Below are positions 16,180-26,235 of a DNA stretch of 36,957 nucleotides, piece by piece. The DNA lies in the IMG/VR virus record IMGVR_UViG_3300032315_000210, positions 1-36,957 of that record. The stretch is one strand, 5' to 3'. The translations under genes were made by a program, and so were the position numbers. The stretch's first letter is position 1, and each line of letters begins with the position of its first letter. This DNA is from a virus. The notes below the pieces were generated by a model that had not been told where the DNA came from, searched no databases, and saw nothing but the letters and a program-made list of their open reading frames with translations.

Positions 16180-16764
16180 CTATATACAACACTATATGAA
16201 ATAAGGGTCCCAACCTATCAGACCCCCACCCCATGTGACCAAAGTCATAGCATAGACAAGCCATATAACACCACAATCCCAAAACTGCCCTCTGGCTCTA
16301 TCGTCATAGAGTACCAGACAGAGCGAGCCGTAGCCCCCCCCATGCGCCCCCCCGTCCGCATTGGGACTGGAAATCCTTGTATCCATTGCGTGGGCGGACC
16401 CGAACGCACCTTAACCCCAACTTTTTTGCTGTTACATGCAGGCGGGCGGGTACTAGCGGAGCAGACTACTATTTTGGGCTGTCATATCCTGCGGGGGCGG
16501 GCGTGAGCGTCAAAGAAGGAATTGCAACGGTTCAGCGATGAACACACATTCATTCACACATGTTAGTGTGTGGGTGAGGGCGTGTGCGTCAAAGAGGGAT
16601 TGTGTCGTTCGGTGTTGCCGAGCGACTTGGTGTTCACACACACTCTAGTGGGTGGGTGTGAGCGTCAAAGAGGGAATGTTGTGGTGGTTGCGACATGGTG
16701 TTGCGACATTAGATGTCCGTGAACGGACAGCCACGAGTTATGCCGATTAGTCTGGGAGGACATC
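16180..16764. other. Gene-free early control region with three stem-loop/CGTCAAAGAGG elements
   Basis: No convincing gene. A 111-codon frame at 16171-16506 begins inside the terminator and has unrelated composition. The stretch has long C and G runs (about 16334-16351 and 16491-16499), a compound hairpin TCTGG/CCAGA around TCTAT/ATAGA (16291-16318), a small hairpin TGTCCG-TGAA-CGGACA (16714-16729), and three copies of GCGTCAAAGARGG at 16507, 16586 and 16662, about 77 bp apart. Copies two and three are preceded by CACACA/TGTGTG-type stems (16555-16572 and 16634-16661). It probably carries the promoters of the main early unit. Confidence 0.55.
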
Positions 16765-17007
16765 ATGGCACGCAAGAAATTAGCAGTAGTTGTAATGGGT
16801 CGTTACGCAAAGTGCGACAAGTGGTGGACGGTTGCGTTTGATAACGCTACCGAAGTGTTGGAGACTGGTACGGTTGTGGATGTTCGTAAGGTGGACGGAA
16901 GCGAGCAGAAGGTCATCGTGCAGGCTTTGATTGCATCGTCAATCGTGGAGTCGGACACGCAGAACCCAACATTGTTCTACACTTACACGAAGGTGTCGGG
17001 CAAGTAG
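16765..17007 (+). CDS. Hypothetical early protein, 80 aa
   Basis: Starts at ATG 16765 with GGGAGGACATC upstream, a strong ribosome site. The protein is a mix of short strands (KLAVVVMGRY, QKVIVQALI) with no recognised motif. It is the first gene of the main early unit and its stop codon is four bases before the hammerhead ribozyme, so its message would be cut just behind the coding region. Confidence 0.6.
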   Translation: MARKKLAVVVMGRYAKCDKWWTVAFDNATEVLETGTVVDVRKVDGSEQKVIVQALIASSIVESDTQNPTLFYTYTKVSGK

Positions 17008-17010
17008 CAA

Positions 17011-17067
17011 GGACGAAACGGGAGTTCCCCACTCCCGTCCACGGATATTGTCCGTGCTGATGAGTCC
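17011..17067 (+). ncRNA. Type II hammerhead ribozyme
   Basis: All conserved core positions are present in the order expected for a molecule opened at stem II. GGAC (17011-17014, stem II 3' side), GAAA (17015-17018), stem III of 8 bp (17018-17025 with 17031-17038, loop TCCCC), the GTC cleavage triplet ending at C17039, stem I of 6 bp (CACGGA 17040-17045 with TCCGTG 17051-17056, loop TATTG), then CTGATGA (17057-17063) and GTCC (17064-17067, stem II 5' side). Every stem is perfect. Cleavage is predicted after 17039. A bulged continuation of stem II (TTG 17071-17073 with CAA 17008-17010) could provide the loop-loop contact. Confidence 0.9.
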
Positions 17068-17092
17068 AGTTTGACTACGCTGGGAGGCGTGT

Positions 17093-17245
17093 ATGAGTAA
17101 TGCAGTAATGGAGCGGAAACTACTGTCTAAGGGTATTTATGAGTGCCCATCGTGCAGTAAGCGGACGGAAGTGTTCGTCAAAGTTGTTGAGGTGGCTTGT
17201 GGTTGCAAGCCACAACGGGTTTCTATGCGAAAGGTAGGCAAGTGA
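17093..17245 (+). CDS. Small zinc-ribbon protein, 50 aa
   Basis: ATG 17093 has GGGAGG upstream (17082-17087). The peptide contains CPSC and, about 16 residues later, CGC, an arrangement able to hold one zinc ion. It is the first gene behind the ribozyme; the cleaved message would start 54 bases before this codon. Its TGA overlaps the ATG of the next gene. Confidence 0.6.
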   Translation: MSNAVMERKLLSKGIYECPSCSKRTEVFVKVVEVACGCKPQRVSMRKVGK

Positions 17246-24736: not shown

Positions 24737-25654
24737 ATGATACCAGAGTTCTTGCTTAAAGACTTCGTAACTTTGTTTCGTGGTCGTGGCGATGTTTACG
24801 GACATGACGAGGGTCGTTGTGTCAAAGCCCCATTAACCTTAGATGTATTTCAGAATCATTTCACGGATGCACCAATCGGTGTGTACCCTATGGTTCCTCA
24901 TGCTGGCGACTATTATGTTGCTTGGGGTTGCTCGGACTTTGACACAACAGATGCCTTGGATAATGCCGTCAAACTACATGACGCATTGCTAGAGGCTGGT
25001 ATCGTATCTTGGATAGAGAAGTCACGCTCCAAGGGTTATCATGTGTGGGTGTTCGCTGCCAATCTTGTCCGTGCTATAGACATGCGTTATATGTTGCTTA
25101 TGGCATCACAGGTGGCAGAGGTTCCAACTACAGAGGTTAATCCAAAACAGAAAGCGTTGAAGCATGGGCAGTATGGCAACTATGTTCGGTTGCCATACGC
25201 CCACATAGATGACCTGCATACTGATAGGCAACGCATAATCCTTAGGGCAACAATCAAGGACAAGCATGTGCCAATGCAACTATTGGACTTTGTGCGTAAC
25301 GCTGTGGACAATCGTGTTCCAGTGGAACGCATACAGCAAATCGCTAGCATGTATGTTCCACCAGTCCACACGCCAGTAACCGTTACGGATTATGACGACT
25401 ATGATGCCACACTACCTGAGGCTATGGAATCGTTATCACCATTGGGTAAGGTTATATGGCGTGATGGTCCGCTTGCTGGTAAGGACCGTTCAACTACCTT
25501 AGCCAAACTTGGGCACGAGTGTGTGCGCTCAGGTCTTAATCCCTCCCAGACTAAGACCATTGTGCGCACCGCCGATAAGCGTTGGGGCAAGTATCATCTT
25601 CGCCCCAACGGGGAATTAGAAATAGACAAACTAGTAGTGAGGGTACATTCGTGA
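24737..25654 (+). CDS. Archaeo-eukaryotic-type primase (AEP)
   Basis: 305 residues. The AEP catalytic signature is present: two acidic residues in CSDFDTTD (about 66-71), the helix preceding SWIEKSRSKGYHVWVF with the conserved Ser-x-His motif (about 91-106), and a third motif around YGNYVRLPY. The C-terminal 130 residues look like a helix-rich accessory domain. It makes primers (or acts as a primase-polymerase) for the fork opened by the helicase. A four-base overlap (GTGA) joins it to the next gene. Confidence 0.8.
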   Translation: MIPEFLLKDFVTLFRGRGDVYGHDEGRCVKAPLTLDVFQNHFTDAPIGVYPMVPHAGDYYVAWGCSDFDTTDALDNAVKLHDALLEAGIVSWIEKSRSKGYHVWVFAANLVRAIDMRYMLLMASQVAEVPTTEVNPKQKALKHGQYGNYVRLPYAHIDDLHTDRQRIILRATIKDKHVPMQLLDFVRNAVDNRVPVERIQQIASMYVPPVHTPVTVTDYDDYDATLPEAMESLSPLGKVIWRDGPLAGKDRSTTLAKLGHECVRSGLNPSQTKTIVRTADKRWGKYHLRPNGELEIDKLVVRVHS

Positions 25655-26235
25655 CAACAATTCTAGCGATACAAGGTGACGGTTGGGCTTGCATAGGTTC
25701 CGACACACAATGGACAGACGACTATAATCGTGTTGGTAGGATGAACCAGTCTAAGGTTATTACCGTAGGCAAATATCTTATAGGTGTGGCAGGTGACACA
25801 CGAGGAGCAAATGTTGTTCAACATGCTTTCACACCGCCAGCATTACCACCCAAAGTTGGTGGTAACAAACTATCCAAGTTCATTGTGTCACAATTTGTTC
25901 CAGCGTATAAGGAATGTTTGGAATCACATGGCGCAGGCAGACCACAATACGATGACCAACCAGCGCAGTCAGCAAACGAAATCCTAGTTGTTGCTAATGG
26001 TGTTGTGTTCCAAATAGACAATGATTATGGTACCGAAGTGGATACATGTAATCTGTATGCTATTGGTTCTGGCGCACATTACGGGCTTGGTGCATTGCAG
26101 GCTGTAACAGAAAAGAAAAAGATTACCGTAGCAACAGTACGCCCGTTAATGCTTAAGGCATTAACTATCTCAGCGAAGTTTGACTCAGGTACTGGCGCAC
26201 CGTTCCACATGTTTATTCAACAGGCACAAGCATGA
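25651..26235 (+). CDS. Proteasome beta / HslV-like Ntn hydrolase
   Basis: 194 residues from GTG 25651, overlapping the primase stop (GTGA). The N-terminus is Met-Thr-Thr; removal of Met would expose Thr1, the nucleophile. Counting from it, Asp17 lies in IGSDTQ, and a Lys occurs at 34 (SKVITVGK), close to Lys33 of the family. GVAGDTRGAN and GSGAHYGLGAL match the conserved glycine and Ser-Gly segments around the active site. It should be a threonine protease assembled as a ring. No ATPase partner such as HslU is encoded beside it, so it may use a host unfoldase or act alone. Confidence 0.75.
   Translation: MTTILAIQGDGWACIGSDTQWTDDYNRVGRMNQSKVITVGKYLIGVAGDTRGANVVQHAFTPPALPPKVGGNKLSKFIVSQFVPAYKECLESHGAGRPQYDDQPAQSANEILVVANGVVFQIDNDYGTEVDTCNLYAIGSGAHYGLGALQAVTEKKKITVATVRPLMLKALTISAKFDSGTGAPFHMFIQQAQA

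Follow-up and report, generated by a model that had tools for sequence, protein, structure and literature searches.

In the 36,957-nucleotide viral DNA analyzed here (IMG/VR record IMGVR_UViG_3300032315_000210; hereafter the window), a type II hammerhead sits between a gene for an 80-aa protein (p80) and one for a Zn-ribbon-like protein, and at this one orthologous gene boundary near relatives carry either a hammerhead, a different structured RNA (here termed X) or a tRNA-like minihelix. This variety of RNA elements among related phages suggests that the job of the boundary is cutting mRNA: the best explanation appears to be that two early mRNAs are parted here by a cut that leaves their ends protected, for which any cutting module would do. 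The hammerhead belongs to a class common in phages and is ordinary within it but unusual in its context, and the value lies in the swap set, which makes the idea of an mRNA cutter directly testable and supplies a few candidates among which to look for a new ribozyme class. Should the minihelix and X likewise break the RNA between these two genes, the function would be the cut and not the ribozyme.

As read from the sequence, positions 17011-17067 of the plus strand hold a complete type II hammerhead core. The 5′ strand of stem II (GGAC, 17011-17014) leads into the GAAA core (17015-17018; G12, A13, A14 and A15.1), the 8-bp stem III hairpin (17018-17025 with 17031-17038, loop UCCCC at 17026-17030; folding energy -11.8 kcal/mol), the stem I hairpin (17040-17045 with 17051-17056, loop UAUUG at 17046-17050; 6 bp, or 7 with a U-G, at -7.9 kcal/mol), the CUGAUGA core (17057-17063, from C3 to A9, with G8 at 17062) and finally the 3′ strand of stem II (GUCC, 17064-17067); the stem II strands and the core segments were placed by pairing and sequence mapping, respectively, and by covariance model. 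From the pairing map, the cut is predicted between 17039 and 17040, immediately after the triplet GUC (17037-17039); GUC is likewise the triplet of 204 among the 209 type II hammerheads compared from phages. The features that define the class are found together, namely the CUGANGA and GAAA core with its A15.1-U16.1 pair, a stem II closed by G10.1-C11.1, loop-closed stems I and III with stem II open, and an NUH cleavage triplet in the form of this GUC. Flanking the core is an outer stem II helix of GUAG (17004-17007) and CUAC (17075-17078), its pairs checked in the sequence, which includes the stop codon TAG (17005-17007) of the p80 gene; it is found in the window and in the contig L003, and is only partly possible in L104. 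The internal loop CAA (17008-17010) is complementary to the UUG of loop I (17048-17050), with which it could possibly form a tertiary contact; by eye, UUG/CAA or AUUG/CAGU could pair to join stems I and II. The 3′ tail AGUUUGACUAC (17068-17078 on the pairing map) comprises an internal loop followed by the CUAC strand, and the tail sequence AGNNNGACU is found again in hammerheads of related phages. The minimum-energy fold of the core alone is the hammerhead, and for the core with its flanks a nearest-neighbour model, which ignores tertiary contacts, gives a competing fold that is 4-6 kcal/mol more stable. Judged by its sequence, the transcribed strand encodes a natural hammerhead ribozyme of type II.

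The hammerhead match in the window is not due to chance: a loose type II descriptor gives 0.07 matches per simulated window, and with stems of at least 4, 8 and 6 bp the descriptor gives none in 300 simulated windows. Moreover, the pattern GGACGAAA..GTC..CTGATGAGTCC matches at least 120 IMG/VR contigs, where a rough estimate would have about four. A covariance model (R2) trained on 39 phage hammerheads from outside this phage family, with the window excluded, scores the window at 59.5 bits (E 2.9e-17) and the hammerheads of its relatives at 49-67 bits; in the training alignment 99.2% of the cells pair, and 12 of the 16 pairs change on both sides. A search of the window with Rfam 15 did not match the hammerhead family RF02276 even at E 10, its gathering score of 37 bits not being reached. 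This silence reflects low sensitivity of the model, because RF02276 reports just 2 of 46 descriptor-found hammerheads in nine comparable phage loci (L118, L115, L126, L103, L096, L104, L062, L003 and L058) and misses the other 44; surveys based on it will undercount phage type II hammerheads. The preliminary description of this DNA had claimed a complete type II hammerhead with stems of 8, 6 and 4 bp, which both the mapped parts and the R2 score bear out, and had inferred a cut after 17039, which holds as the predicted position; the covariance-model check that it proposed came out divided, with RF02276 below threshold and the phage-built R2 passing strongly. It further proposed that a cut leaving a 5′-OH stem I hairpin may influence mRNA stability or expression, and it overlooked both an outer extension of stem II and the exchange of the element for other RNAs in relatives.

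The hammerhead lies on the plus strand within the gene order p80 (16765-17007), hammerhead, Zn-ribbon (17093-17245; 50 aa with CxxC, downstream of the predicted cut), three further small genes and an AAA+ ATPase, a context that the preliminary description had given correctly. Its assignment of these genes to an early operon is a fair inference, because the plus-strand replication genes face structural genes on the minus strand. The p80 protein is conserved at 80-95% in seven IMG/VR contigs; it has no match in Pfam and PHROG searches and no homologue in GenBank phages, among which the region also lacks a DNA match. The Zn-ribbon gene is preceded by a Shine-Dalgarno sequence (SD), GGGAGG (17082-17087), placed by eye in a small hairpin with the stem ACGC/GCGU (17077-17090). 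Inspection by eye also indicates that the stem of this hairpin, which bears TGGGAG in its loop, covaries in relatives (ACGC/GCGT, TTGC/GCAA, TGAC/GTCA and TGGC/GCTA).

Relatives were fetched as IMG/VR contigs by means of the p80 and Zn-ribbon genes. In L003 the hammerhead of the window recurs with a single change, in loop I, and the p80/Zn-ribbon boundary also features hammerheads in L104 (with an ATPase 53% identical), L062/L250 and L251. In the more distant relatives L104, L062/L250 and L251 stem III is wholly different yet paired, and L251 also has a compensated change in stem I; the letters of the catalytic core do not vary despite this exchange of stem III. Other relatives bear hammerheads in other gaps of the same operon, for example before the ATPase gene or after the gene for a DUF7192 protein. 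A broad scan with marker proteins returned mostly unrelated phages, without hammerheads or X.

At the same boundary X replaces the hammerhead in L002, L004, L005, L006, L007, L012, L014, L016, L017 and L019. It spans 70-85 nt, in most copies with 0-4 nt between the stop codon and its start. From the 5′ strand (ACGGU) it runs through a joint, UGGUUGAG, into the hairpin P1, which has 12 bp and a loop containing UCCC; a second joint (CUGAUU) leads to the hairpin P2, and the P2 loop (ACCGU) and the 5′ strand are complementary. Like the hammerhead of the window, it lies upstream of the same SD and combines covarying stems with conserved joints; unlike it, X has no hammerhead core. Across seven distinct sequences every one of the 119 pair cells holds a standard pair, and both sides vary in 8 of the 17 pairs; sliding the partners as a control destroys the standard pairing. 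A model built from the X sequences (R1) finds second, divergent copies between other genes in L062/L250 and L251 (29.5-31 bits), where the 5′ strand and the P2 loop read UUCGC:GCGGA and UCCGC:GCGGA, with 5/5 positions paired; the support from L062 is moderate, because its 5′ strand was chosen within about 17 nt. Representative copies lie at L004:3388-3470, L012:2701-2773, L005:6245-6318, L251:6944-7010 and L062:6066-6150. The pairing of the 5′ strand with the P2 loop may form a pseudoknot, or it may give an alternative helix incompatible with P2. No Rfam family matches X. We rejected the view that it is a degenerate or permuted hammerhead, as GAAA is absent and CUGA is not kept in L006 and L015. 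Six pattern matches in bacterial genomes (13-15 bits) are at the level of chance, and a match in L215 (33.5 bits) with the 5′ motif, no P2 and a different context was also taken as chance; the R1 matches between the ATPase and DUF7192 genes of L005 and L012 (28.5 bits) are not X but a different element, composed of a hairpin plus GTCAAAGA.

We regard X as a candidate for a new ribozyme or processing element. That it would represent an undescribed class of RNA that cleaves itself as a ribozyme or is cut under the guidance of an RNase is a tentative and, on balance, unlikely proposition, because a precedent advises restraint: a 2023 study of permuted hammerheads (PMC10085705) reported that similar locations are occupied by different ribozyme classes and used this to seek new ones, and that ten such location-associated candidates did not cleave.

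A third kind of element is seen at the same boundary in L252 (6244-6310), in the form of a tRNA-like minihelix with a 7-bp acceptor-like stem (GTGTGCG/CGCACAC) set on a canonical T-arm (ACGGG-TTCGATT-CCCGT). ARAGORN does not call it, and its Rfam matches, one to the T-arm of tmRNA (E 0.004) and one to mascRNA, are weak. Minihelices of tRNA-like shape are cut by RNase P and RNase Z, and hence this one fits a signal to cut as the common job of the boundary. In the ATPase tree the window falls outside a pair formed by L003, with a hammerhead, and L004, with X (support 96/97), and the supported branches force two module changes. The argument that any cutter would serve is weakened if X does not cut.

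The placement of phage type II hammerheads relative to genes was examined in about 200 fetched examples, a set that includes relatives and was retrieved with a pattern that fixed GGAC/GTCC. The stop codon of a long upstream ORF is no more than 3 nt away from where stem II begins in 119 of 201 (59%, as against 2.6% of random positions; neither this nor any other percentage for the set is unbiased, because of the fixed pattern and the inclusion of relatives), and in 51 of 96 when one hammerhead is taken per contig. In 37 hammerheads stop and stem II share a base, the last of the one being the first of the other, as in TAG|GAC, and the median gaps are 1 nt from stop to stem II and 13 nt from stem II to the SD. 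A downstream gene starts within 60 nt for 150 of 197 hammerheads in the sense orientation, as against 23 of 209 in antisense and about 13% of random positions. In Perreault et al. 2011 (PMC3088659), in whose text the term "stop codon" does not occur, we found no mention of this phasing, though our coverage of the literature is incomplete.

Taken together, we consider it rather probable that the hammerhead splits the early transcript by cutting after C17039, leaving both ends protected and possibly under the gating of translation; the RNA is very likely able to cut itself between the two early genes. The polycistronic mRNA, once cut, would yield a p80 message in which the flush stem III hairpin, ending in a 2′,3′-cyclic phosphate, follows the stop codon within a few nucleotides, and a downstream message that begins with the flush stem I hairpin and a 5′-OH, with the start codon of the Zn-ribbon gene about 53 nt further on. 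By topology, among the three circular permutations of the hammerhead type II alone leaves closed hairpins at both new ends, and therefore the likely effect would be two units with protected ends, which could decay at different rates. In bacterial mRNA decay, hairpin-closed and 5′-OH ends resist 3′ exonucleases and RNases that depend on the 5′ end. Further, since stem II directly follows the stop codon, which is part of the outer helix, the cut may be translation-gated: a ribosome terminating at the p80 stop would cover stem II and GAAA, and translation of p80 may hold back the cutting. Cleavage in the cell, end protection and translation gating are what we infer from this arrangement. Against this reading, simple RNase sites would also split the transcript.

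Other accounts of the element differ in what they make of the cut. It might act as a translational switch, with loop III (UUCCCC) pairing with the SD GGGAG of the Zn-ribbon gene to keep it closed until cleavage separates the loop from the downstream RNA and frees translation. Indeed, the GGGA of the SD is complementary to the UCCC of loop III, L104 has UUUCCCC as its loop III, a UCUCC loop faces a GGAG SD in L023 and L079, and UCCC recurs in the long-hairpin loop of X. However, an SD-complementary loop III is present in only 9 of 209 phage hammerheads, a survey that leaves a general role for such pairing unsupported; L062 has a UUCG loop at the same boundary, in L062b the loop of X keeps UCCCC although the SD is different (AGGAG), and with only two to three independent cases, chance could account for them. 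We accordingly hold the switch to be improbable. We give equally little credence to a structural insulator, in which the folded block after the stop codon is what counts, by stopping ribosomal read-through or reinitiation or by blocking 3′ exonucleases, and cleavage is incidental. The flush placement of hammerheads against stop codons would suit such an insulator, as would the filling of similar gaps by X and other hairpins in an operon full of intergenic hairpins, but a plain hairpin needs neither CUGAUGA nor GAAA, and the invariance of the core amid the wholesale replacement of stem III speaks against it.

Finally, the hammerhead might be a selfish or neutral passenger that moves from one intergenic site to another and brings the phage no advantage, an origin hinted at by the presence of hammerheads at different gaps of the operon in different relatives and by the swap at the same boundary that sets the window and L003 apart from L004. 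This is likewise improbable: core and pairing are kept across phages with ATPases that are 36-53% identical, the sense orientation and stop-codon phasing are strong, and the element is swapped for other structured RNAs and not lost.

Both the hammerhead class and a transcript-splitting role for it were already proposed in 2011 (PMC3088659), and the context is the new part. Perreault and colleagues described type II hammerheads, including clusters that flank single genes in prophages, showed that tandem bacterial copies self-cleave and proposed the processing of long phage transcripts by splitting. The element in the window shares with that class (PMC3088659; RF02276) the core, the permutation, the GUC cut site and an intergenic location in phage operons, and members of the class sometimes occur several to a genome, flanking single genes. 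It differs in that the loop I-3′ tail pseudoknot of at least 4 bp common in the 2011 set is not clearly present, in going unrecognized by RF02276 and in having outer stem II pairs that include the upstream stop codon. The HHphage elements of the haloviruses HF1 and HF2 (PMC3088659) similarly precede an early replication gene at close range, 13 nt from the start of a helicase; these are, however, a structural variant in archaeal viruses, whereas the window belongs to a tailed phage and has a core of the standard type II form, before a Zn-ribbon gene. The theta (HDV-like) ribozymes located next to tRNAs in gut phages (PMC10879173) are also small phage ribozymes that set RNA ends, adjacent to a further processed RNA, but they belong to another class and act at tRNA ends, while the element studied here lies between two protein genes.

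Several additional observations concern the neighborhood and the wider set of contigs. Intergenic gaps of the window contain five copies (at 16508, 16587, 16663, 17874 and 19312) of a variable hairpin followed by [CT]GTCAAAGA, and such hairpins with a tail of this type are also seen in relatives, with GTCATAGA in L062. This tail is reminiscent of GGTGGMTGTCAAG, the stoperator of mycobacteriophages, a likeness that we take as a lead only. An ORF at 25582-26235 of the window with a weak Pfam match to a proteasome subunit (E 1e-5) adjoins a primase-like gene. In a group of other phage contigs (L118, L103, L115, L126 and L096) there are 7-11 type II hammerheads per contig, nearly one per gene boundary.
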